Source: Nannochloropsis salina CCMP1776
Lineage: Eukaryota > Sar > Eustigmatophyceae > Eustigmatales > Monodopsidaceae
Assembly (NCBI GenBank): GCA_004565275.1
Contig: SDOX01000009.1
Coordinates: 78,027 to 142,026, forward strand
DNA: 64,000 nt
Reading direction: 5' to 3'
The translations under genes and the position numbers were made by a program. The notes under the pieces are model-generated. The model saw only the letters and a program-made list of their open reading frames with translations. It did no database searches and had not been told where the DNA came from. Below are positions 44,848 to 64,000 of the stretch, piece after piece. The stretch's first letter is position 1. Every line of letters starts with the position of its first letter.

Positions 44848-47800
44848 ATGGCCAGTGGTATGCTTTCTAGCGACCCGCAACTAGGGCAGGCCCCCCGCCG
44901 CCGTCGTCGGGTCCTGCTGATTTCTCTTGGTGCAATATGCCTCATCGTGGTCGGTGCTCTAGCCATTGGCTTCGGAATCAAGGGAAAGGACAACGATAAG
45001 CACACATCAACGCATGGCAATAAGCACGGGCCCGCGACAGAAGCGGTTTCTTCAATGGCTGACACGAAGAACACGATCGTCCCCTCACAACCCGAATCAG
45101 GTACGTGTGAAAGTGTAAAATTGAGGAAAGACCAGAATTGAAATTAAAAATTGATTTGATACTCGGAAGTACATGGGTATCTCCTGGATCCATTTGAAAT
45201 TTCCAATGAAGCTACCTATTGCAGATCATTGCTGAGTTCGGACAACTGTGATTCTATGACGTACTGCTATTTAAAGCTGAGGCGTGTGCGTTCCCTGATT
45301 TTGAGCAAGATCATTCGTTCTGCTCTCTGGTTTGACATGCTGCACATGATTTCTATTTAATCTACCACAGCGCCGGCTACTGTTGTGGAGCCCGTGAAAG
45401 CTCCTGTTTCCGAGTCCAAGCCTAGTTCTCCCGCGACTACCACAAAGGTAGACGAGTCTGACAAGATCCTGACGTTTGGGGACGGAGAAAGGAACCCCCT
45501 CGGTCCATTGTTCGGTGCCCTTCCTGGCGCTGCGGCTATCAATGGTGCTTTCAATACCCTGGCTGCTAGCGCTGCCAATCTGGCTGGCTTGCAAGTCTGC
45601 TATCCTCAGAACGGTGAGGAGCTGAAAGGGATGACGGAAAGCGGGAGCTCCTGTAGCGTGATCATTTTGAAGAAGGGGTCGTCCGACAAGTACACTTTAC
45701 CCTCGACTGTAATTGTAACCTCTCGTAAGATCGTCTTGGGTCATCCCATTGATCTTCCGCAGATCCATCCTGACAAGGGAGTGTACCGCCTTTTCGAGGT
45801 GAAGCCAGGCGGCAGCTTGGATATTCGTTTCGTGAGCCTTTTTCGCCCGTCTCCACGGAAGGTGGACGACAATCTCAGTGTTATCGTTGCGGGCGTTGCG
45901 CTTGTGGAGCTTGGGGGCTATATGCGGGGCACAGCTTGTATTTTCCGACAGCCCGCGCAGACATTTGAAGCTTTCGTGAAAACGCTCGAAAACCCCTTTG
46001 CACGCAAACGCATTGTAGGTGGTTTCGTCTTGGTGCTGGGGGGAACTTTCTTTTGCTATGGATGTCAAGCAGTTCGCTGGGCACCTTACGGGTCGCCTAA
46101 TGTCAATGTTGTCCAGATCGGACGGGATTATCTGGTCATGGCCGGCTCGAATGTGTGCATCGGATGCTATCACGTTGCCTATTCACCCTACAATTCTGCA
46201 ATCAGTGTGGGAAATGCCATGGGAGTCTTTGGTGGCGTGAATATCCGAATTGGAGGCGGGACGATCGGATCCTCCGTGTTAAAAGGACAGTTCGGTGAGT
46301 AAAACAAAGTGCCTTGTCTATATGATATCGCTTACATACATGTCAATGGAGGAATGCAACAACTCATTATATTTACGTCATCTAGGTGCTGGACAAAATA
46401 TATTCGTCGGCGGCGGAGTGATCGTGAATGTGGGTCACCAGCAGCAGACTGCTTTCGTCTGCCTCATTCGTGCAGGATATGCCATGACTGCTGTCGGATC
46501 AGGAGTAATGGTGCTTATTGCAGAGCTGGAGAACCGCACTTGGGGCGTTGCCGGTATCAACGGTGCTGGTCAGGTGTACGCGAATGGAGCTGGCGTCCTC
46601 GATAAGACCGGAGGAGAGGTTGTGAACAGCGCAAGCTCTGTCTACCAGGCCATTGTGGGTGGAAGCGCTTATCTCGGCACTGGAGACATGAACATTGTGG
46701 GCGAGCAGTATGCCCGTGTCACGGTGACCCTGGATCAGAATGGCGTGGGCCTGACCTTCTTCAATGGCGCGGGACAGACAAGTTTGATTTATGTACCAAG
46801 TTTCGTGTCGGCAGTTGTCCGTTCGCAGAAGATTCTCGGCGCTGAGGTGAGATATGACAAATCTTCGTCCTTTGGAGAACTTAACAGGAAGATCTATATT
46901 GTTTTGTACTCATATATTTGTCTATATCGCCTCAGGCATTCTTAGGCGCTGGTTTCTTTACGAACGTCAACAATACACGCTGGACCATTCAAGTGGTGAA
47001 TGCCGGTATTCCCGGATACGAGGGGTGGATTGGTCTCGGAGCTGCCCTCTTTGTCCGATCCCGCACTACGGTCAGGCGTGTGGTCAACTTCCGCTTCAAT
47101 CCTTACGCATGGGTAGTCAACGGCCAAGGCGTGCCTGGGTCTGCGTACCGCGACAACAACATTTTCGTCAACAAGGACGGCATTCGCATCAACAAGCCCA
47201 ACCCGTCGAAGAGCCGTCTGCTCGCTGCCGTGGACGAGATGGTGGATGGTCATCTCAAGTCCAAGAGGAATATTCAGGGTCTCCTCGCGGGCATCAAGAA
47301 CTTTGTGGACCGTCCGGCCGTCGTGATGGCGAACAGCGAGATGGACTCGGCGCGCATGCGTCCTCCCGATCCCCAGATCTTGGCCGGAAAGATCCTGTCC
47401 ATGGTCACGTCTCTGAAGCACAAGCGCCGTCTTCAAGGTCAAGCCGTCGTCAATCCTACGCGCATGATGAACATGTTGGCTGGTCTGTCACCTGGGAAAT
47501 TTATGGAGGCCTGGAAGGAGGCTACAGAGGAGACCAACAGGAACCCTCTGCTCAGCTTGGTGCAAGGCAGCAGCCGCGCATTGGCCGAGACCGCAGATCC
47601 TACGGCGGTGGACGAGAACGGTCGATGGGCCGAGCAGGTATACGTGGGCGGGAAGGAGACCCAATGTGTCATGTGCGGTGTAGGCCCGGGGACTTCGTCT
47701 TCTCACTGGTCGACAGGAGGGAACGACACTGCGACTTGCCACGTGACGGAGGAGTGCACTTCCCGTAGCTCATTCCGAGACATTCTGGCAGCGGCGAAGA

Positions 47801-48810
47801 ATGCGTTGCCGCAAAACGAGGAGCTGGTCTTGCCACCTGTGGCGAAGGGCGTCGCGAAGGCCCTTGGCTCGACGGATCTCGCGCCCAAGTACACTCGTCG
47901 CATCTTGCAGATGATGGAGGAGCACCAGGAGGCGAACCCTGGAGCGGAGCCCAAGCTGCCCGACCACAACATCCTGGCATACGAGCTGTCTCTGTACTGC
48001 GGTGCTGACGACGCAGACTGCAGCTTCAACCAGGCGGACATGAAGGCGGCGGTGAAGCTGTTCCTGAGTGAGCAAGCGGACGAGGAGTCGGCATTCAATG
48101 TCGCAGCTTCGACGACAGATGTGCATCCTGCTCTCATCGACTACGTGAAAGAGGCAAGCAGCGAGTTTTTGGATTCTGTGAAGGCCCCGTCCCACGGCAG
48201 CGGATGTGGCAAGGGACTGAAGTTCAACGTGCAGATGACGGCGCCTGACGCGGCCTCTGTGAAAGACTTGCAGAAGATCTTCGAGGGCGTGGCCAGCAAT
48301 GGCGAGTCGTTGCTTGATACGATCAACAAGTACGACGAGCGTGATGTGCCGTTCTGCGACGTGAAGGTCAGCAAGCCATCGACGCTCTTCTTCCCGTCGA
48401 TCGATACGGCCCAGGGTCTCAAGTTCTACCAGGGGCTATACACGGGCAGCGCTCTCGACACAGGGTCTCTGTGGCCCGACGTGACGCTGGTCTCACCGCA
48501 TGAGGTGGCACCCGTCCAGCACGCTGTGGTCGGCCAGCCGTACACGGTGCTCTTGGAGGGCTTCGCGATGAAGGGAGACGTGGTCGTGGAGCTCTTCCAG
48601 GGCACTGAGAAGAAGGGCGTGACTGTCGCTACGGTGCCGGGCGGGATCGCCCCTGGCGAGGTGCGGGAGGTGTCGTGGACGGCTCCTGAGCCGCTTGATG
48701 GAGTGTCTGGGAACCGAGCCTACCTGCGCGCGTACCACGCGGGGATGCCGGCGATCTATGCCCAGAGCGAGGTCTTCGACCTGTTGCCGTCATCTGTGCT
48801 TGAGCTCTAA
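44848..48810 (+). CDS. tandem surface-protein family, copy A (unknown family)
   Basis: Exons 44848-45100, 45371-46294, 46386-46846 and 46936-48810 (1170 aa); all GT-AG, phases 1, 1, 0. Residues 1-21 are polar with five Arg (17-21), residues 22-44 form one membrane helix, so the protein is type II with nearly everything outside. A Thr/Ser linker leads to exons 2-3 (about 85-546): a Gly-rich series of short beta strands (RLFEVKPGGSLDIRFVSLF, VNIRIGGGTIGSSVLKGQFG, INGAGQVYANGAGVLDKTGG) that I read as a right-handed parallel beta-solenoid. Paired Cys (LQVCYP, SCSVII; CYGC, CIGC) suggest disulfides. Exon 4 continues the beta strands, then ~350 helical residues with CVMC, CGADDADC and SGCGKG, then a C-terminal Ig-like domain (VGQPYTVLLEGFAMKGDVVV, REVSWTAPEPLDG) resembling Kre9/Knh1-type wall domains. 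Function unknown; a cell wall or surface role is inferred. Confidence 0.82.
46936..48780 (+). repeat. exon-4 repeat unit, copy A
   Basis: About 1.85 kb almost identical to 52932-54776 and 58653-60497. Scattered differences from B change roughly a dozen of 624 residues (for example NIQGLL versus STQGLL, LSPGKF versus LSPAKL, LLEGFA versus LLENFA). The preceding intron 3 is unrelated to those of B and C. Confidence 0.9.
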
Positions 48811-50825
48811 CAGGCCTGCCCACTGTGAGTATTGCTTTTCGAGATGGGCTGGTCGTTGCAAGCCCTTGGGCCTTTTTCCAGTTTACAATGTATCTTGATC
48901 GACTTATGGTATGATACGGGATATACAAAAGGAGAAGACATGACGAAACCGAAGAGAGGCACCAAAGAAGAAGCATCAAAATTAACAATTTGAACTATAT
49001 AACGAGAGAAAGAGAGAAATTTAGCTCTTAGAAATCATCATTATTAGGAGTATTGACGTACTGGGTGACGGCGGCTGAATTTAATTACGTGGTAAGGGAT
49101 GATTGTTGCTGAAGACATATCTAATATGCTTCCAGGGCGTATAATAGGTAGAATGAAATATCTACTGTTGTTGAGAGAAGTGTTTTAAGGAGGTGAAGGG
49201 AATGATTGGCACAGAAGAGGAGAGTAAAAACCAAAGCAAAGTACCTTTTTGAAAAGCCTTCCTTATGGATATTTTACTCTTGCTTACTGGTCTGGGCAAG
49301 TGTCTCTCCGGGCCACACCACGCATAGCTGGAAATTTCGTTCTTGAAATTACGATGGACCAGCTTTTCACGCTATCCGGTGTCGACAAGTGATACATGAA
49401 AGAATACTCACTTACCTGGCAATGATTTAGTGATTGCCCGCTTGAGTAGTAACAGATCAATAGCATCGCCTTTCTGTCGAAGGTTGCTTAGCAGTAGTTC
49501 CACATTGTCGCTCTTTCTGCGTTACTTCGACGAGCAAAAGTCTGGGTAAGCAGCTTTTAGATGAGTTTGTGGTGCATAATGGTCAAATACAGTTTACTGC
49601 TTCTTTATTGAGGAAACTTCGCTTTTCACGATTCAACGCGATGACGCGGATCTCATGGACGTCGAAAATGCCAAATAAAATCCTTATGGGCTCAATAAGT
49701 GTTGTATTTGTAAAATTGGTGTGCTTACAATGGATTAAATAAATAGCCTTCCCTTTTCTTGTCGGTGGCGAATTGCGACGCAGGTTGATTAGATGAGTAG
49801 TCCGAGCGTAAACAAGAGCCTTAATGAATTACAGATGGCTCCTCTTAAGTTCGAAGACTATATTCTTTAAAAGGCGACCACTGAGTCTGAGAATGCAAAG
49901 AAAAAGGGATACAAAGTCGAGCTTGAAAAAAGAACAACAAAGTTTTAAAGTTATGTAAAAGTGGGGGGACGGAATGTCTTTCGCGCTTATCCAGACTCCT
50001 TCTGGAGACTGCCACGTGCCTCACGTCCCTTCAACTCATTCAATAGCGTTCACTTTTTAATGAAAGTTTACGCCCACAGCCGCCTTTCGTAGCATGCATA
50101 CCTTCACTCCCAGCCTCCCCAAGCTGAACTCCCTCCGCTGCCATGAGTCGCCGTCGTGGACAGCTCAGACTTCTGCGATCAACTTGCAATGAGATACTCA
50201 CGACAGTTTAAAGGCTATGTATCATAAAATGCTTCAAACGCACGACGTGTGTCGACGCGATGCCCAGAATATTATTCAAAACCCCCAGTTCGGCATTGAG
50301 GTCGCCGTTACTTGACGTTAGGTCTGGGGTCCGTCCGTTGGAATTCAAACAAATTTCACGAGAGAAATAAACCATTTGGTTCTGGGTCCCGGGAGAGGAG
50401 CCCCCGTGAAATTGCATGGTGTCAAGACTCCTTAAGACGTTTGTTTTTGTCTACTATCATGCTAAATCTTTCAATTGCGCAATTGCCTGAAGTCCGCGGA
50501 TATTTGGACTTTACGAGTTGTCTTGGTCCGGGTTAAGCACACGTACATTTCTCTGTTTCCTGACCCGGCTCGGGACATCAAATGGGCCATGACCCGAAGA
50601 CATGCCGAGCGGCCCTGATCTCCATAGGTATTTGGATGCTTGCAAACAGTTTATAATCACACAAATGCATTTGTATCCGCAAAAGACACCTAAGAAAAAT
50701 CATTTTTGCGGCGCAAATCGTAGATCCACCGCGGTATTCATTTAATACGCGCGGTATTCAGAGGAGACCGCGCAGAAGCTAACGAATCACAAACAAACAA
50801 AAGTATTTTGACAGCTCTTTGCTCT
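48811..50825. other. 2.0-kb spacer between copies A and B
   Basis: AT-rich, no convincing gene. The distal part, which should be the promoter of copy B, contains TGACCCGAAGACA (50590-50602) shared with copy A and an imperfect GC-rich palindrome at 50728-50755. Confidence 0.45.
50728..50755. promoter_or_regulatory. imperfect palindrome upstream of copy B
   Basis: ACCGCGGTATT and AATACGCGCGGT face each other around CATTT, about 70-98 bp before the copy-B ATG. GCGGTATTCA also occurs twice as a direct repeat (50731 and 50751). It could be a factor-binding site or a 5'-UTR hairpin; no equivalent was seen before A or C. Confidence 0.35.
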
Positions 50826-53800
50826 ATGACTAACGGTGCGCATTCTAGCGACCCGCAACTAGGGCAGGCCCCCCGCCGCCGTCGTCGGGTCCTGCTGATC
50901 TCTCTGGGTGCACTATGCCTTATCGTGGTCGGTGCCCTAGCTATTGGCTTCGGAATCAAGGGCAAGGACAAGCAAAACGAAGCGCCCACTGCAGCAGAGA
51001 CGGAGCCTATTTCTTCCTTGGCTGACATTACAGATGCTCTTACTCCCACTGCGCCCGATTCAGGTAAAAGACAGTTTGTCAAGGAGGAGAATATCATTTT
51101 TTTTAAAAAGTAGTGTGCTCCCTGATTTGACACTTTCTGCCAATCAGCCTTTCCCCCCTTTTTTAAGGGTTTCCAAAACCGTGGTCGAAATCCCAAATAG
51201 ATGACTCAAATAATTAGAAACAAAAGGATTCAACACCTTGCATTTTGGAAACCAAATCTTGGGGTCAAGCTGGAAAGAGTGCAAATTCTGACCCCTGACT
51301 GATTTGACACTTTTGCACATGCTGTTATCAAATTTCAACCCACCACAGCGGCAATTACCGCGCCGGCCACCGTCGTGGAGCCTGTGAAAGCACATGCTTC
51401 CACTGCTTCCGAATCCAAGCCTAGTGATCTTACCATTGCCACGAAAGAAGACGAGTCCGACAAGTTAATATCTTTTGGGGACGGAGAGAGGAACTTCATC
51501 GGTCCATTGTTCGGTGCCCTTCCTGGCGCTGCGGCTGTCAATGGTGCTTTCAATACTCTGGCTGCCAGCGCTGCCAGTCTGGCTGGCTTGCAAGTCTGCT
51601 ATCCCGAGACTGGCCCAGAGCTCAAGGCGATGGTGGAAAGCGGGGGCTCATGCAGCGTGGTCATTTTGAAGAAAGGATCCTCCTACATTTACCTTCTGCC
51701 GTCTACCGTGATGGTAACCTCTTCTGTAATTATCTTGGGCCATCCCATCGATCCTCCGCAGATCCATCCTGAGAAAGGAAATTACCGCCTTTTCGACGTT
51801 GCGGCCGGGAGTCACATCGACATCCGCTTTGTAAGCCTCTTCCGCCCGGCCCTCCGAAACGTGGGAGGCAACCGCTCGCTCATTGTCGCCGGTTGTGTGC
51901 TTGTGCGCACAGGAGGGTATTTCAGGGGCTCAGGTGTTATTTTCCGACAACAAGCGCAGACATTTGAAGGTTTTGTCAAGGGTCTCATGGACCCCCTCGC
52001 ACCCAAACGTATCGTAGGCGGTTTTGTCTTGGTGGCAGGCGGGGCTTTCTTCTGCTATGGCTGTCAAATCATTCGCTGGGCGCCTTATGGTGCACCTAAT
52101 ATTAACCTCGTCGAAGTAGGACGTGACTATTTGGTGCTGGCCGGTACAAGTGTATGCATCGGTTGCTATCACGTGGCCTGTGCTCCATTCCAATCCTCAG
52201 TTAATGTGGGAAATGCTGTGGGGGTATTAGGTGGCGTGGGAATTCGCGTTGGGGGTGGAACGATCGGTGCTGCCGTATTGAAGGGTCAATTTGGTAAGTC
52301 AATTTGATTGCACGCAAATATGATTAGTCGTAGTTAAGCTTGTGCTTGAAACATAGAGAAGACTTTATACTGATGCTGAACGGATCCACAGGGGCGGGAG
52401 AGAATCTTTTCGTCGGCGGGGGAGTCCTCGTCAATGTGGGTCATCAGCAACAGACTGCTTTTGTCTGCCTCAATCGTGCTAACTTTGGTATGACAGCTGT
52501 CGGATCAGGAGTAATGGTGCTTATTGCAGAGCTCGAAAATCGTGCTTGGGGCGTTGCTGCCATCACTGGTGCTGGTCAGGTGTACGCGAATGGAGCTGGC
52601 GTCCTTGACAAGACCGGAGGAGAGGTTGTAAATTGTGCAATCTCTTTTTTCCAGGCCCTCGCCGGTGGAAGTGTGTATCTCGGCACTGGAGACATGAACA
52701 TGGTGGGCGAGCAATTTGCCCGTGTCTCGGTGACCCTGGATCAGAATGGTGTCGGGATGACCTTCTTCAACGGTGCGGGACAGACAAGTTTGATTTATGT
52801 GCCAAGTTTCGTGGCGGCAGTTGTCCGTTCGCAGAAGATTCTAGGCGCTGAGGTATGTACGAAGTAAATGAAGTTGAGCATATAGACAAAGCGACATCGT
52901 CCAAAAACACTCTTTTCTTCGAACCAAACAGGGATTCCTGGGCGCTGGTTTCTTCACGAACGTCAACAATACACGCTGGACCATTCAAGTGGTGAATGCC
53001 GGTATTCCCGGATACGAAGGGTGGGTTGGTCTCGGAGCTGCCCTCTTTGTCCGATCCCGCACTACGGTCAGGCGTGTGGTCAACTTCCGCTTCAATCCTT
53101 ACGCATGGGTAGTCAACGGCCAAGGCGTGCCTGGGTCTGCGTACCGCGACAACAACATTTTCGTCAACAAGGACGGCATTCGCATCAACAAGCCCAACCC
53201 GTCGAAGAGCCGTCTGCTCGCTGCCGTGGACGAGATGGTGGATGGTCATCTCAAGTCCAAGAGGAGTACCCAGGGTCTCCTCGCGGGCATCAAGAACTTT
53301 GTGGACCGTCCGGCCATCGTGATGGCGAACAGCGAGATGGACTCGGCGCGCATGCGTCCTCCCGATCCCCAGATCTTGGCCGGAAAGATCCTGTCCATGG
53401 TCACGTCTCTGAAGCACAAGCGCCGTCTTCAAGGTCAAGCCGTCGTCAATCCTACGCGCATGATGAACATGTTGGCTGGTCTGTCCCCAGCAAAGCTTAT
53501 GGAGGCCTGGAAGGAGGCTACAGAGGAGACCAACAGGAACCCTCTGCTCAGCTTGGTGCAAGGCAGCAGCCGCGCATTGGCCGAGACCGCAGATCCTACG
53601 GCGGTGGACGAGAACGGTCGATGGGCCGAGCAGGTGTACGTGGGCGGGAAGGAGACCCAATGTGTCATGTGCAGTGTGGGCCCGGGGCCTTCGTCTTCTC
53701 ACTGGTCGACAGGAGGGAACGACACTGCGACTTGCCACGTGACGGAGGAGTGCACTTCCCGTAGCTCATTCCGAGACATTCTGGCAGCGGCGAAGAATGC

Positions 53801-54806
53801 GTTGCCGCAAAACGAGGAGCTGGTCTTGCCACCTGTGGCGAAGGGCGTCGCGAAGGCCCTTGGCTCGACGGATCTCGCGCCCAAGTACACTCGTCGCATC
53901 TTGCAGATGATGGAGGAGCACCAGGAGGCGAACCCTGGAGCGGAGCCCAAGCTGCCCGACCACAACATCCTGGCATACGAGCTGTCTCTGTACTGCGGTG
54001 CTGACGACGCAGACTGCAGCTTCAACCAGGCGGACATGAAGGCGGCGGTGAAGCTGTTCCTGAGTGAGCAAGCGGACGAGGAGTCGGCATTCAATGTCGC
54101 AGCTTCGACGACAGATGTGCATCCTGCTCTCATCGACTACGTGAAAGAGGCAAGCAGCGAGTTTTTGGATTCTGTGAAGGCCCCGTCCCACGGCAGCGGA
54201 TGTGGCAAGGGACTGAAGTTCAACGTGCAGATGACGGCGCCTGACGCGGCCTCTGTGAAAGACTTGCAGAAGATCTTCGAGGGCGTGGCCAGCAATGGCG
54301 AGTCGTTGCTTGATACGATCAACAAGTACGACGAGCGTGATGTGCCGTTCTGCGACGTGAAGGTCAGCAAGCCATCGACGCTCTTCTTCCCGTCGATCGA
54401 TACGGCCCAGGGTCTCAAGTTCTACCAGGGGCTATACACGGGCAGCGCTCTCGACACAGGGTCTCTGTGGCCCGACGTGACGCTGGTCTCACCGCATGAG
54501 GTGGCACCCGTCCAGCACGCTGTGGTCGGCCAGCCGTACACGGTGCTCTTGGAGAACTTTGCGATGAAGGGAGACGTGGTCGTGGAGCTCTTCCAGGGCA
54601 CTGAGAAGAAGGGCGTGACTGTCGCTACGGTGCCGGGCGGGATCGCCCCTGGCGAGGTGCGGGAGGTGTCGTGGACGGCTCCTGAGCCGCTTGATGGAGT
54701 GTCTGGGAACCGAGCCTACCTGCGCGCGTACCACGCGGGCATGCCGGCGATCTACTCCGAGAGCGACCTGTTTGACTTGTTGCCGTCGTCTGTGCTGGAA
54801 AACTAA
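50826..54806 (+). CDS. tandem surface-protein family, copy B (unknown family)
   Basis: Exons 50826-51063, 51349-52293, 52392-52852 and 52932-54806 (1172 aa), with the same phases as copy A and exons 3 and 4 of identical length (461 and 1875 nt). The N-terminus MTNGAHSSDPQLGQAPRRRR plus the membrane helix is almost the same as in A after the first few residues. The linker (KQNEAPTAAETEPISSLAD...) differs. Exon 2 is clearly homologous to A but with many substitutions and a seven-residue longer start. The 3' part of exon 3, intron 3 and exon 4 are nearly identical to copy C. The start is the first ATG; an in-frame TTG lies 18 bp upstream. Last residues are SSVLEN. Same inferred topology: cytosolic Arg-rich tail, one membrane helix, beta-solenoid stalk, helical domain and terminal Ig-like domain. 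Confidence 0.82.
52705..54790 (+). repeat. B/C homogenised tract, copy B
   Basis: About 2.1 kb running from the last third of exon 3 through intron 3 and exon 4 to the stop codon, almost identical to 58426-60511. The 79-bp intron differs at one base. Identity stops within a few bases of the stop codons. Only 54403-54459 is clearly different from C and instead equals copy A. Confidence 0.9.
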
Positions 54807-56653
54807 GCGATCTGCCGTCAAGATTGTAGTTGTTTTGAGTAAGATTGTGCAATGTCGTATATGAATCAGAGGTAAGGATCTGTTTTGAAAAGAGCATGGC
54901 TTGGGGCTCCTTTTTTTATTTCACAGGCGGGCTTAGGAATGTATGGCAATGGAAAGTCTGTATACGTTCAAGGTCGACAATTGCGATGTATTGAGTGAAA
55001 ACACCCTGGCCTTTTTTAAATTTCTCATGTTCTGCATTCCGTATCCACCTCTTCCTCACAGACACCATTATAATACTGGGTTGTCAAAACAGAAAGGGAT
55101 CGAGGGGGAAAGTGTCTTAAGAAATAGGACAATAGTTCAGAGCGCTGTTCAATTTTTGGCAGGCCCCATGAGCAAAGTAAAAGTATAAGTGAGAATTATG
55201 TTGGAGGAAACAGTAAGAAGTACAAAAGCAAAAAAGCAAGAGACGGTGGACAAGAGCTAGATTATTTTCGAGATGTTTGTATTGTGACTTATCATTGCTA
55301 GCGCTTTACTGAGGCAATAATTTCATTCAGGTCGGTCTTCTGCCAAATGACGATGTTGTATTGATGCCTTATTTTGCCTTGAACACAACCATTCCTCCTC
55401 GCGAGTCCCCTTCGAAACTTTTTTGTTTATCTCTGTAAATTACCTGACTTCAGCATGAACAAGCTTGTTCAGGTATACCCATTCATGTTTATATGGTAAG
55501 GTAACTTTGTTTTGTATACACAAGCGCTTCGTAAAATAATGGTAGGATCGAGTTTCTCCTTACTATATCTCTCTAGTACAACTTTTTCGTGTCTTTCATG
55601 GCCTGAAGGTCACCGCTACGTAGGGGTTGGAAAAGATGCGCAAGTAACGGTCTTTTAGAAGAGGCTGACTGAAATATGGCTGTTTTTAAACACAAGGTCA
55701 CTTCGCGTATCCGATCCTCATATGTTTTTTGACATGGCTTATAAAATTATGGATCTGCTCAACAGACATCAATCGTTTAACATATTGCTTGCTATCCACA
55801 CATAACCTTTCATCAAATCATACATAGGTGATTATTGACCAATGTTTCCTCCGTACCTTTCCACGATACACGTTTGGCATTAAGCAGGACATATACATCC
55901 CATACTTCTTTGTGACCCAACTTAGCAAAGTGCTGCGGGGGAATGTGGTATATTTCTCCATCCGGGGAAATGTATGGCATGCTTATCCAAGACTTCGCTG
56001 CAAGGCAAAGTCTACCAAAAGGCAGAGCTTCATTTTGCCATCGAAATGCATAGCTTGCTTACACTACGAAAGTTTTATTATGATGGTTATTCTTCACGTT
56101 GAAGTCTGAAAGATTTAATCTGCTCTGTCGAAAAGAGACCGACTTTGACTTTCTTGGACATGCTCGCCATAAGTCGCCGCTCTGGGTCATGTCCGAGAGT
56201 CTATTTTCCCAATGCCGCCGTTGATTCGATCGGCCAGCCATTCACCAGTTTGTGTATAAAATATTATTCTCCAGTTCATATAGAATGGGAAGACAGAAGC
56301 TTGTTGTAGGGTAGGCTTAATCACAATCGGTGTCGAATAGCAAAACTCCGAGGTTAGCGCGGGGAGGTTTTTAAAATTCCGTTGCACAGCTTCTTCTCTC
56401 GTGGGCGTTGTTTTTCCATGCCTCATACGTCTTTCCGTGCTTCCTCGTAAGTCCTTCTTAAATGGTCACTCACGCCAGACAAAAATTGCCCTGATACTCC
56501 TTTAGCTTATCTGGGGGCTTGCTTACATTCGCGAAGCGACTGTTTGAAATGACCTTTGGAGAGAAGCACCACTTCGTTAATGATATATACACAATCTTTT
56601 TACAGGGACGATCCGACGATTCGATTCTTGATAAGCAGAGAGATTTCTCGCTC
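54807..56653. other. 1.85-kb spacer between copies B and C
   Basis: AT-rich, with no convincing gene, no transposon ends and no obvious similarity to the A-B spacer. It must carry the copy-C promoter. The lack of shared flanks means the copies are not a fresh whole-unit duplication. Confidence 0.45.
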
Positions 56654-59600
56654 ATGACAAGCATATCGACAGCAAGAGGAACCCAAGAAGAGCAAAGCTG
56701 CCATCACTGTTGTAATTATCTGCTCATTATCTTCCTCAGTGCCCTCGTACTCCTTGCAGTGGTCGGCGCGTTCGCCATTGACTTTACAGTCTATGGCCGA
56801 GATGAAAAAGATTTTAAGTCCAAAAATGTGGTACCAGGGATCTATTTAAGTATTAATGACACCACAATGGCCTTTTTCTCCGTTACTCAGCGAGTTGGTA
56901 AGTGGTGGTTTGGCGAGAGTATACTCATTTCTCTTTCCCTCGATGTCATCTGATTCAGCCAGAGTTTGCGTTATTATTTCGAGGATAGCAACTATGTTTA
57001 TTGTCTATTGATAGCTTGTTCATTCAAAGTGAACCAAAATAAACTGGGCTTTTTGTAACCGGAATCACACCGTAGTGTTTTTTCTACTCTTTGCCCCAAA
57101 ATATATTTATGGTGTGAGGACGTAAAAGGCTCCCCGCTAGACAGACATGAAGATAAATCGCCAGCGAAGACCATTTCTACTACGTCGAACGCCTCTGACA
57201 TAGCTTTACACATCAATGGAACTACTTACAGAGCGGCAGGATCTCTTATCGGTACTCTTCCTAATGTCTCTGCTGCAAAGCACGCCTTCAATGCCCTTGC
57301 CCTTCGTGCTGCCAGCCTGACCGGCCTGATAGTATGTCATGCTGTGAGTGCGTCCGATTTAGAGGCAATGGTGAGGGCCACAAGCAAGTGCACCGTCATC
57401 ATTCTAACCAAGAGGCCCTTCCAACAGTACGTTATCCAAGATACCATGGTTGTGACTACCCGCAAAATCGTTCTAGGTCATCCCATAGATCTTCCTGAGA
57501 TTAAGGGCGAGAATGGTGTCAACAGAATATTCGAAATACAGGCGGGGGGCAACCTGGATATCCGCTTTGTGAGCCTCTTCCGCGCGTCTCCCCGAAAATT
57601 GAGTCCCATTTTAAGTGTGATAGTTGGGGGTATTGTGCTCGTGCAGCTTGAAGGTTATTTTCGCGGAACGGCTATCATCTTTCGAGATCCGCCACAAACA
57701 TTCGAAACCTTTATAAACGATTTAGGCTCGTCTTTGCAGCGTCGGCGTGCGTTTGGCGGACACGTTATGGTGCTTGGTGGGATTTTTTCCTGCTACGGTT
57801 GTCAAGTGCTACGCTGGTATCCTTATGGCCTGCCCATTTTTAATGTGGCACAGGTTGGCCGAGACTTTCTAGCCATGGCGGGGTCCTGTGTTACTGTAGG
57901 CGTCTATCATGTCTTTTACGCTCCCTATCTGTCATCCATCAACGTTGGAAATGCTGTGGCAGTTCTAGGTGGTACGCATATTCGCATCGGCGGTGGGACA
58001 ATAGGATCTGCCGTGCTTATTGGACAGCTCGGTAAGAAATGCAATAAAGAGCATTTGGGAGGATACATCTACAAGAAACACTTACTTACCATTTATACGA
58101 TCCTTACCATAGGAGCGGGACAAAACTTTTTTGTTGGTGGAGGAGTCCTCGTCAATGTCGGTCACCAGCAGCAGAGCGCCTTTGTCTGCTTATTTCGTGC
58201 AGGTTTCGGAATGAGCTCCGTAGGGGCAGGAGTCTTCAGTCACATAGCGGAGCTGGAAAATCGCGCCTGGGGCGTTGCTGCTATATTAGGTGCTGGTCAA
58301 GTGTACGCGAATGGAGCTGGTGTTTTTGACAAGACCGGAGGAGAGGTTGTAAATTGTGCAGTCTCTATTTTGCAAGCCTTGGCGGGCGGAAGCTCTTATC
58401 TTGGCACTGGAGACATGAACATTGTGGGCGAGCAATTTGCCCGTGTCTCGGTGACCCTGGATCAGAATGGTGTCGGGATGACCTTCTTCAACGGTGCGGG
58501 ACAGACAAGTTTGATTTATGTGCCAAGTTTCGTGGCGGCAGTTATCCGTTCGCAGAAGATTCTAGGCGCTGAGGTATGTACAAAGTAAATGAAGTTGAGC
58601 ATATAGACAAAGCGACATCGTCCAAAAACACTCTTTTCTTCGAACCAAACAGGGATTCCTGGGCGCTGGTTTCTTCACGAACGTCAACAATACACGCTGG
58701 ACCATTCAAGTGGTGAATGCCGGTATTCCCGGATACGAAGGGTGGGTTGGTCTCGGAGCTGCCCTCTTTGTCCGATCCCGCACTACGGTCAGGCGTGTGG
58801 TCAACTTCCGCTTCAATCCTTACGCATGGGTAGTCAACGGCCAAGGCGTGCCTGGGTCTGCGTACCGCGACAACAACATTTTCGTCAACAAGGACGGCAT
58901 TCGCATCAACAAGCCCAACCCGTCGAAGAGCCGTCTGCTCGCTGCCGTGGACGAGATGGTGGATGGTCATCTCAAGTCCAAGAGGAGTACCCAGGGTCTC
59001 CTCGCGGGCATCAAGAACTTTGTGGACCGTCCGGCCATCGTGATGGCGAACAGCGAGATGGACTCGGCGCGCATGCGTCCTCCCGATCCCCAGATCTTGG
59101 CCGGAAAGATCCTGTCCATGGTCACGTCTCTGAAGCACAAGCGCCGTCTTCAAGGTCAAGCCGTCGTCAATCCTACGCGCATGATGAACATGTTGGCTGG
59201 TCTGTCCCCAGCAAAGCTTATGGAGGCCTGGAAGGAGGCTACAGAGGAGACCAACAGGAACCCTCTGCTCAGCTTGGTGCAAGGCAGCAGCCGCGCATTG
59301 GCCGAGACCGCAGATCCTACGGCGGTGGACGAGAACGGTCGATGGGCCGAGCAGGTGTACGTGGGCGGGAAGGAGACCCAATGTGTCATGTGCAGTGTGG
59401 GCCCGGGGCCTTCGTCTTCTCACTGGTCGACAGGAGGGAACGACACTGCGACTTGCCACGTGACGGAGGAGTGCACTTCCCGTAGCTCATTCCGAGACAT
59501 TCTGGCAGCGGCGAAGAATGCGTTGCCGCAAAACGAGGAGCTGGTCTTGCCACCTGTGGCGAAGGGCGTCGCGAAGGCCCTTGGCTCGACGGATCTCGCG

Positions 59601-60527
59601 CCCAAGTACACTCGTCGCATCTTGCAGATGATGGAGGAGCACCAGGAGGCGAACCCTGGAGCGGAGCCCAAGCTGCCCGACCACAACATCCTGGCATACG
59701 AGCTGTCTCTGTACTGCGGTGCTGACGACGCAGACTGCAGCTTCAACCAGGCGGACATGAAGGCGGCGGTGAAGCTGTTCCTGAGTGAGCAAGCGGACGA
59801 GGAGTCGGCATTCAATGTCGCAGCTTCGACGACAGATGTGCATCCTGCTCTCATCGACTACGTGAAAGAGGCAAGCAGCGAGTTTTTGGATTCTGTGAAG
59901 GCCCCGTCCCACGGCAGCGGATGTGGCAAGGGACTGAAGTTCAACGTGCAGATGACGGCGCCTGACGCGGCCTCTGTGAAAGACTTGCAGAAGATCTTCG
60001 AGGGCGTGGCCAGCAATGGCGAGTCGTTGCTTGATACGATCAACAAGTACGACGAGCGTGATGTGCCGTTCTGCGACGTGAAGGTCAGCAAGCCATCGAC
60101 GCTCTTCTTCCCGTCGATCGATACAGCTCAAGGAATCAAGTTCTACCAGGGGTTGTTTACGGGCGACGTCCTGGACAAGGGGTCTCTGTGGCCCGACGTG
60201 ACGCTGGTCTCACCGCATGAGGTGGCACCCGTCCAGCACGCTGTGGTCGGCCAGCCGTACACGGTGCTCTTGGAGAACTTTGCGATGAAGGGAGACGTGG
60301 TCGTGGAGCTCTTCCAGGGCACTGAGAAGAAGGGCGTGACTGTCGCTACGGTGCCGGGCGGGATCGCCCCTGGCGAGGTGCGGGAGGTGTCGTGGACGGC
60401 TCCTGAGCCGCTTGATGGAGTGTCTGGGAACCGAGCCTACCTGCGCGCGTACCACGCGGGCATGCCGGCGATCTACTCCGAGAGCGACCTGTTTGACTTG
60501 TTGCCATCGTCTGTGCGAGCAATTTAA
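56654..60527 (+). CDS. tandem surface-protein family, copy C (unknown family)
   Basis: Exons 56654-56897, 57129-58031, 58113-58573 and 58653-60527 (1160 aa), same phases and same exon 3 and 4 lengths as A and B. Exon 1 is quite different: no Arg run, a CHHCCNY motif before the membrane helix (LLIIFLSALVLLAVVGAFAI), and a shorter linker. The exon 2 start at 57129 (acceptor GTAAAAG) was chosen by phase. Exon 2 keeps the beta-solenoid pattern and landmark strings (IVLGHPIDLP, LDIRFVSLFR, IRIGGGTIGSAVL) but at far lower identity. From late exon 3 it becomes nearly identical to B. Exon 4 carries a private island (60124-60180) reading GIKFYQGLFTGDVLDKGS. It ends SSVRAI. Confidence 0.78.
58426..60511 (+). 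repeat. B/C homogenised tract, copy C
   Basis: Partner of 52705-54790. Apart from the island at 60124-60180 the encoded exon 4 is the same as in B almost to the last few residues, in strong contrast to exons 1 and 2. Confidence 0.9.
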
Positions 60528-61257: not shown

Positions 61258-62821
61258 TTACTCACCAGCCGAAACGGTTCCCACCAATTCCTTCTCTAAA
61301 TCTTCGGCCTCGACCAAAACCACCCCAAGGCCTGTGACCGGATCTTGTGTTACCGCAACTTTGGTCCCTATGCCCGGCGCCTCCCCAGCAAACTTCACAT
61401 CCACCCCGCTTGCTTTCCAATCCTCTGCTCCTCCCTTCCCTACTACGTCTGTCCCAAGAATAGCCAGCTTATCCACTACCCCTCCAAGACGGACACCGGC
61501 CTTGGCCTCTTTTTTTGGGAGAGGCAATAGCAATATCCCGAAGCCGTCCTCATTGAAAGCGAGAAATCGGCTGCCCTTCGGCTGCTTTGGCTCATAGATC
61601 GACTCTGGGATTCGTGAGAGCGGATAGGGCTGTTCTTGCATACCCAGGGAATTGACATAAAAGTGAGAGGCTTTCTGCACGTCGGGGACATTCAGGGCTA
61701 GCATCATGATGGGGTCTCGCCGCATCCCGACTATGACTTGATGGCGTAACCCGCCAGGAGAATCCACAAGGACCCATCCGTATGCAGATTTTATCTTGCC
61801 CCCTGCTTCCGCCAATTTGGAGAGACGAAGTGAAGGAACGGCCAACTGGAGGTAGGCAGCGGCATTTCCAGGGTCAAGCACAGGTGTGTCACCCTGAATG
61901 ATGAGCGAAGGACGATGAAAGAGGGAAAGAGAAGGGATTGATTTGATCATCATACGCTGGGACGTGTCTGAAACAAGTGGTCTATCCAATCTTCATTGTC
62001 TTGCCATGAATGGTCTGTAATTTGACCGCACTCTGGGTTGTGCTCAGTCTCGTCGTCTTCAAGCTAACATAACCCCCCCTCCCCCCGGGGAGATAAACGC
62101 GCCTACTCACCTCTTCCGTTTTGAGAACCTCGTTCAGTTCCAAAGCGAAATGGGCCCCGTACATTGAAAAGGAAGAGACACCAGGATACCAGCCCTTTGG
62201 CGTTTTCAATGTCTCAGGTCCATACCCAACGAATGTACTATTTTGCCCCCCTACAAGTCGGGATCGCAGCACCTGCATTTGCAGGCCATCGATGTAGAAG
62301 GATAAGGCTGCAGCCATATCTGGAACATTGATAACAAGATGCTGCGTGAAGCGTGGGTTAGACGCCCATTCTGGCAGTTCGCCAATCGCATTTGCAGCAT
62401 TCGGACGTGACGGGAAAGCACCCGTGATACTGCTACCCAATACTCCGGCAGTGGTGGCTACTGTCACACGCTGTAAAAGTCCCTGCCGATCGATTAATTC
62501 AACTTTGCGGCGATTTGGCATACCGTCTTCACCGTTCTCGCTATCTATGTTGGGAAACAGTATGATTTGTCAAGTTACGCAGGTGCCATGAAGTGGCACT
62601 CAGGAGGTTGATATACCGGCTCTAGCGTCAATCTTTGACATCTGTTAAAAACAAATAACATTGAAACGAAGACTCTCACCTTCCACAATATCACTCTTCA
62701 TTGATATTGTTGCACTCCTTGTCATCACCCTGGAAGGATAGAAAAATGACTCCGTCATAGGATACATGCAACTGACTGCAACAATTAGGGCCGCCGACCA
62801 GGCGTTCCTACCTCCCGGCAT
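61258..62821 (-). CDS. plastid (possibly thylakoid lumen) double-VOC/glyoxalase-like protein
   Basis: Three exons on the minus strand: 62821-62680, 62544-62111 and 61893-61258 (403 aa), all GT-AG and in phase. Exon 1 is a bipartite plastid presequence: signal peptide AWSAALIVAVSCMYPMTES then Phe26-Phe27 and a basic, Ser-rich stretch. A second signal follows: Arg59-Arg60, a hydrophobic segment at about 70-91 (LLQRVTVATTAGVLGSSITG) and ANA (98-100), as in thylakoid-lumen import. The mature part has two vicinal-oxygen-chelate modules, FTQHLVINVPDMAAALSFYI and MMLALNVPDVQKASHFYVNS, the usual paired betaalphabetabetabeta units of glyoxalase I, dioxygenases and resistance proteins. Metal ligands cannot be assigned with confidence, so no reaction is proposed. 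An unrelated in-frame ATG at 62521 would drop the presequence and is not favoured. Confidence 0.8.
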
Positions 62822-63134: not shown

Positions 63135-64000
63135 CTAAGTCGCATTAAAGCCCACATCTATACACCACCTGGGGTTCTGCGCTTGGAAACGTGCCCTGCG
63201 CAATTGCAACAACTCGTGAGATCGGCTTGCTGGTTCTGAGACCTTTCCGATCGTCTCGTAGGACTCGTTCTTGAAAAGGAGCTCCACACATTTATCTGCA
63301 ACTTGCCGGATTTCAGCATTTGGATGTTGCAGCGCTTCTAAGACATCTGAATGAAATTGGAGACCAGGTCTCAATGCTGACGATGTAAACGACATGTAAT
63401 ATAAGCGATACATCAACACAAGAGCTTGTAATGCGAGTTCATTATCGATCCTAGCAGTATCACACCATATTGAGTGCATGGCCTTCAGAAACTCAATGTC
63501 TTGGCTCATTTGCTCACTGCATACCGGGTCCAAAGCGAGCGTCTGCAGCAGTAAAAGAATTTGAAGCAGCATGTCGACTGTGTATTTTTCATTTCCGTAG
63601 TCCCCAACTGTAACTCTGTTGTGATCAGGACGTCTATCACGATGTGACTGTAATTCGAGCATCGCTTCCTTACAATACACTAACAAGCTTTTTGGTGATT
63701 CTTGCTGCGGTTCCTGTGATAGCAAGGAAGCCAAATTAAAGTCATGCCATTGCATGCCGATAGGTAAATCCAAAGGTGTCAAATTGGCCAGAATTCCTAT
63801 TGTCTCTAATACTAAGGGTTCCGTTGGCTGCCTGGAGCCTGGAGGTGGCAGCATCACCGAGCCGGATATAGTCGAAGACAGCGCCGGACCCCCGGAGCTC
63901 GAAGCTGACCCAGCCAAGGCTGGCAACATAGCCAAAAGAGGCTTTATGTGAGATGGCCACAAATTACGAAGGTTATATTCCTTTTCAGGATCTTCAAGCG
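63135..64000 (-). CDS. kinesin-associated protein KAP3-like, C-terminal part
   Basis: The reading frame is open from the window edge to TAG at 63135, so about 287 C-terminal residues are seen and the rest lies beyond 64000. KAP3 is the armadillo-repeat accessory subunit of heterotrimeric kinesin-2, the anterograde motor of intraflagellar transport. Support comes from LVLETIGILANLTPLDLPIG, the helical pairs YTVDMLLQILLLLQTLALDP and ALQALVLMYRLYYMSF, and the end EIRQVADKCVELLF with a final PRWCIDVG, parallel to the family's NEIRKVCDNTLDII and SQWLEMV ending. Ser/Gly/Pro-rich residues interrupt the repeats near the upstream end. It could instead be another armadillo protein, but the tail favours KAP3. 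Confidence 0.65.
   Translation of the reverse strand, partial: LEDPEKEYNLRNLWPSHIKPLLAMLPALAGSASSSGGPALSSTISGSVMLPPPGSRQPTEPLVLETIGILANLTPLDLPIGMQWHDFNLASLLSQEPQQESPKSLLVYCKEAMLELQSHRDRRPDHNRVTVGDYGNEKYTVDMLLQILLLLQTLALDPVCSEQMSQDIEFLKAMHSIWCDTARIDNELALQALVLMYRLYYMSFTSSALRPGLQFHSDVLEALQHPNAEIRQVADKCVELLFKNESYETIGKVSEPASRSHELLQLRRARFQAQNPRWCIDVGFNAT

Follow-up and report, generated by a model that had tools for sequence, protein, structure and literature searches.

Three head-to-tail genes (g1, g2 and g3) in a stretch of 64,000 nucleotides from Nannochloropsis salina CCMP1776 (contig SDOX01000009.1, positions 78,027 to 142,026; this whole stretch is the window, and coordinates refer to it) are three of at least 23 loci of one family in this genome. 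The best explanation we can offer, and a tentative one, is that they encode type II-anchored, extracytosolic, non-enzymatic beta-solenoid proteins that scaffold or bind a wall polymer. The gene models, which were drawn from open reading frames (ORFs), repeats and the raw window sequence, are as follows.

44848..48810 (+): g1, exons 44848-45100, 45371-46294, 46386-46846 and 46936-48810; 1170 amino acids (aa)
50826..54806 (+): g2, exons 50826-51063, 51349-52293, 52392-52852 and 52932-54806; 1172 aa
56654..60527 (+): g3, exons 56654-56897, 57129-58031, 58113-58573 and 58653-60527; 1160 aa; uncertain in exon 1 and at the first acceptor

Each gene has four exons and GT-AG introns in phases 1, 1 and 0, with an exon 3 of 461 nucleotides (nt) and an exon 4 of 1875 nt in all three. 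As a check, a custom spliced protein-to-DNA alignment with the N. oceanica homologue P0009 as query placed introns 2 and 3 at identical bases in every gene and reproduced intron 1 in g2. The models thereby bear out the initial annotation, which had described three such genes with exactly matching lengths of exons 3 and 4 and products of about 1165 aa. On inspection by eye, an insert in P0011 (a gene call from a different contig) coincides in position with intron 2 and is read through in that call, so this intron seems to be common to P0011 and the triplet. Intron 2 of g3 (58032-58112) measures 81 nt and contains no in-frame stop, exon 2, intron and exon 3 forming one open frame (57059-58588); if retained, it would insert 27 residues.

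Central to the proposed fold is a ladder of glycine residues at a spacing of 30 (G372-G552 in g1), with seven rungs in each of g1, g2 and g3. A chance origin of this periodicity was ruled out, as it was matched in none of 500 shuffles of each protein. A lag of 30 was the strongest periodicity in all seven proteins checked, the ladder persists in paralogues whose identity to the first aligned row is 18-42%, and the solenoid core is 2-10% charged, compared with about 20% in the other parts of most of these family proteins. The corresponding parts of g1 are listed here.

45580..47199 (+): N-terminal cap and putative solenoid, about residues 155-634, split by introns 2 and 3; extent judged by eye on the ladder
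46386..46846 (+): exon 3, 461 nt or 153.7 residues, close to five coils

From the sequence, the ladder region is probably a parallel beta-solenoid, a variant of that fold, in line with the Gly-rich, beta-solenoid-like region first annotated. A predicted right-handed beta-helix, which the initial annotation would have taken as support, was not obtained, the AlphaFold models of these proteins being poor; a right-handed, pectin-lyase-like solenoid appears more likely than a left-handed one. Members of the pectin-lyase-like right-handed beta-helix superfamily resemble the family in that periodic Gly-rich coils follow a helix-plus-strand cap, the homologue P0010 bears the name of the fold, and the cap region gives a weak fold match to 7o77. 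Their coil typically comprises 22-25 residues, whereas the present family has a regular coil of 30 residues that is very poor in charge, has neither acids nor His among its invariant residues and finds no match in Pfam. As for the left-handed hexapeptide beta-helix, the acetyltransferase 3mqg was the best match of a 16-row profile against PDB (E 0.059 over 37 residues, non-significant), but such helices have coils of about 18 residues, and the strongest lag in the family is 30, not 18.

The solenoid is also likely to be non-catalytic. Not one Asp, Glu or His stays constant across residues 155-680 of eight aligned sequences, and this speaks against a catalytic site common to them; Gly is the only invariant residue in a wider 16-row alignment, so that a structural or binding role is favoured. 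Glycan-active enzymes of the pectate lyase or epimerase type, acting on a wall polysaccharide, are consequently very unlikely, even though the fold name of P0010 and a weak similarity in fold to an alginate lyase speak for them and single family members could be active despite the lack of shared acidic or His residues. No enzyme family emerged from the Pfam or NCBIfam scans. Set against the conserved catalytic Asp, Glu, His, Arg or Lys of pectate lyases, polygalacturonases and epimerases, the eight sequences offer no invariant Asp, Glu or His, but seven Arg and one Lys are invariant in them. Of the carbohydrate-binding or -modifying system initially suggested, the modifying enzyme is thus disfavoured.

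The family could not be placed among known ones, as had been stated at the outset. Pfam returned no family for g1, for exon 4 or for five more pieces, and only weak matches, none of them credible, across 15 + 11 alignment members and 16 paralogue ORFs; these (PHBC_N, DUF7521, DUF5351, MG2, Plasmodium_HRP, ZrgA, Adeno_E1B_55K, DHU1_N and Pentapeptide_3; E 0.04-2.3) were below the cutoff wherever one was printed and were not used. No family of the pectin-lyase-like superfamily appeared in the Pfam scans. NCBIfam gave nothing above cutoff for sets of four and eight proteins, the matches of P0010 to GltJ and of the paralogue L019 to two models falling below it. PDB sequence searches yielded no credible match, and matches to designer PPR proteins were taken as an artefact, since no stretch passed alone. 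Searches of the open-licence PMC literature gave no paper whose title concerns this family, and the main text of PMC11211512 does not contain the words pectin, beta-helix, adhesin or membrane protein.

Upstream of the solenoid, each of g1-g3 carries a hydrophobic N-terminal helix with a 19-residue hydropathy of 2.91-2.98, and such a helix was present in all eight proteins checked.

44911..44967 (+): predicted membrane-anchor helix of g1, residues 22-40, downstream of an Arg-rich stretch

We infer from these features that the proteins are type II-like, with an uncleaved helix, which agrees with the single N-terminal membrane helix of the initial annotation. A signal anchor is compatible with any secretory compartment, and the proteins might accordingly reside in the Golgi, the endoplasmic reticulum or another endomembrane, scaffolding or chaperoning secreted material and never reaching the surface. 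Repeats in paralogues that look metal-binding by eye (Met/His/Asp in L019, His/Asp in L020, an Asp-rich tail in L016) would fit such a role, which we consider unlikely; nothing speaks against it specifically, and the 3-6 sequons in each of g1-g3 and the Cys residues suit lumen and outside alike.

Exon 4 encodes the C-terminal modules, given here for g1.

47665..47757 (+): four-Cys motif, residues 790-820
47947..48405 (+): predicted ferredoxin-like alpha/beta domain, exon 4 residues 338-490; weak model
48502..48753 (+): predicted immunoglobulin (Ig)-like domain, exon 4 residues 523-606; weak model

What had been described as a Cys-containing helical region would comprise the four-Cys motif and a probable ferredoxin-like domain: the motif and a partly helical character were retained, while the second half is predicted to be beta-alpha-beta. 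The Ig-like domain proposed for the C-terminus is likewise predicted by our weak models. It differs from Ig-like domains such as those of FlgD, Kre9/KNH or MG2 type in having no Pfam match above cutoff; Kre9/KNH was not reported in any Pfam scan, and MG2 reached 14.3 bits against a cutoff of 32.8.

Some observations weigh against this reading or the gene models beneath it. In the P0009 alignment, intron 1 of g1 was moved by 12 nt at the donor and 30 nt at the acceptor, and the alignment to g3 begins within exon 2, making exon 1 and the first acceptor of g3 its least certain parts. Weaker hydropathy peaks (1.6-1.8) fall inside the solenoid of each of g1-g3, for which reason the single-pass topology is presumed. 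Finally, the structural or binding reading is qualified by the invariant solenoid residues of the eight sequences (the seven Arg and one Lys named above, and one Gln).

The triplet is real but does not stand alone. Searches of the genome (26.5 Mb in 103 contigs, the contig of the window being labelled C93) with exon 4 as query led to four further genes, on C71, C19 and, as a duplicated pair, on C42. Solenoid queries (the C19 paralogue, P0010, L026 and L017) recovered further loci at C93:491k and on C8, C1 (two), C14 (two), C12 and C6, as well as on C21, C15, C94, C62, C9, C98, C26 and C61, ruling out a lone novel triplet. The total is a lower bound; the loci on C98, C26 and C61 were seen as partial exon matches only, and any of these could be a broken gene. 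The models for C71, C19 and C42a, set by hand, share 26-35% identity with g1, g3 and P0010, and the rows L012, L013 and L016-L028 are stop-to-stop ORFs, whose ends can include intron or flank residues. A 20-row tree, in which neither C42b nor the short L027-L029 ORFs were included, joins g1-g3 with P0009/P0010, next with C42a and next with C71 and C19, each fork having 100 bootstrap and 99-100 SH-aLRT (Shimodaira-Hasegawa-like approximate likelihood ratio test) support. Support is partly weak at deeper forks, and long branches lead to L016 and L022. Two pairs are recent tandem or near-tandem duplicates, namely that on C14 (L020; two ORFs, 840 and 850 aa long, whose branch lengths in the tree mark them as almost identical) and that on C42 (L014/L015; copies about 10.6 kb apart). 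By eye, linkers or tails of L016, L019 and L020 contain repeats of low complexity (acidic, Met/Asp, Met/His/Asp or His/Asp) with a metal-binding-like appearance.

Beyond this genome, a nine-row profile run against 5.8 billion proteins gave 28 listed matches from 7998 scored candidates, including P0013 and P0030, which appear to be the window's own proteins. Among the matches listed, an organism is given for P0009 and P0010 alone, Nannochloropsis oceanica in both cases, so that a restriction of the family to eustigmatophytes is no more than a possibility; these two are 51 and 53% identical across 76 and 70% of exon 4. The source labels P0010 as 'pectin lyase fold virulence factor', a label that denotes a fold class; nothing here points to virulence. 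A viral origin was set aside because viral contigs, scanned with a profile of exon 4 and not of the solenoid, yielded no relative.

The three genes differ strikingly in how far their parts have diverged. Identity among them is 97.0-98.8% in exon 4, 80.9-86.6% in exon 3 and 57.0-74.8% in exon 2, and mostly drops to about 30-50% in the flanks.

46936..48810 (+): g1 exon 4, putative gene-converted segment, with 52932-54806 and 58653-60527 (+); 97.0-98.8% identical

Synonymous divergence (dS) is 0.03-0.08 in exon 4, compared with 0.88 for g1/g2 and saturation in the other two pairs in exon 2, and g2 and g3 agree at every position of a block across intron 3 (100% identity), where g1 is 51% identical to either. 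Purifying selection alone is ruled out by these values as the cause of the exon 4 similarity, and gene conversion is the simplest account of a uniform exon 4 beside a diverging exon 2. Separate trees hint at homogenisation after an ancient duplication: exon 2 of g3 groups with N. oceanica-type sequences (support 83/86), whereas exon 4 unites g1-g3 with P0001 (85/93). This support is moderate, and two rows of the exon 2 tree are imperfect, P0017 being badly cut with a non-homologous tail and P0012 a short piece.

Diverging solenoids, seated on C-terminal modules that conversion keeps uniform, might also be the binding faces of surface adhesins or recognition proteins for contact with other cells or microbes, which we regard as a possible but rather doubtful role. 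Beta-solenoids act as adhesin stalks in other organisms. The many divergent paralogues would fit this role, as would the contrast between exons 2 and 4 and a mosaic patch at exon 4 residues 495-509, which is common to g3, P0001 and P0002 apart from a single residue and different in g1 and g2. Against it, the ratio of nonsynonymous to synonymous divergence (dN/dS) did not reach 1 in any comparison with an estimable dS, so that no diversifying selection was seen, although this was not examined site by site.

Under the preferred wall-polymer reading, the solenoid, roughly 15 parallel coils of 30 residues stapled by the Gly ladder, would be held on the lumenal or outer side by a single membrane helix and the short tail N-terminal to it, and would be followed by the four-Cys module and the ferredoxin-like and Ig-like domains. 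Few charges and a placement outside the membrane would suit a solenoid that contacts a polymer of neutral or hydrophobic character. Most speculatively, its uncharged Gly/Ala/Val/Phe/Ser faces may dock on or pack against such a wall polymer (cellulose or algaenan), on which the C-terminal modules would position it; the paralogues, because they vary mainly in the solenoid, would differ in binding target or site of action. To our knowledge, the proteins that build the resistant wall of Nannochloropsis, algae of a type used as lipid-production models, are largely not known. Two sources describe these walls as rich in cellulose (PMC5509672) and as containing algaenan, for which a route is proposed (PMC11211512), making the wall the natural starting point of a search, although contact with its polymers is our inference. 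We further speculate, as a quite unlikely extension, that eustigmatophytes expanded membrane-anchored, nearly uncharged solenoids of 30-residue coils that bind or template algaenan or pack into a hydrophobic sheet, conversion keeping the triplet's anchoring modules uniform while the solenoids differ. With its regular charge-poor ladder, its secretory-type anchor and no recognition by Pfam, NCBIfam or PDB sequence searches, the family of at least 23 loci constitutes a ready set of wall-protein candidates, and the triplet a clear case of gene conversion on one protein half while the other diverges. Established transformation of both Nannochloropsis and Microchloropsis (PMC13427358) makes the family experimentally testable.

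Next to the triplet, gene pieces resembling Glyoxalase lie at 61258-62569 (-), of which the piece 62569-61985 scores 22.9 bits, above the Pfam cutoff of 20.6, and the piece 61992-61261 scores 16.7 bits, below it. An ORF at 63138-63998 (-) matches the kinesin-associated protein KAP at 25.4 bits, just under the Pfam cutoff of 25.6, a curious match given that this alga is usually described as lacking flagella.
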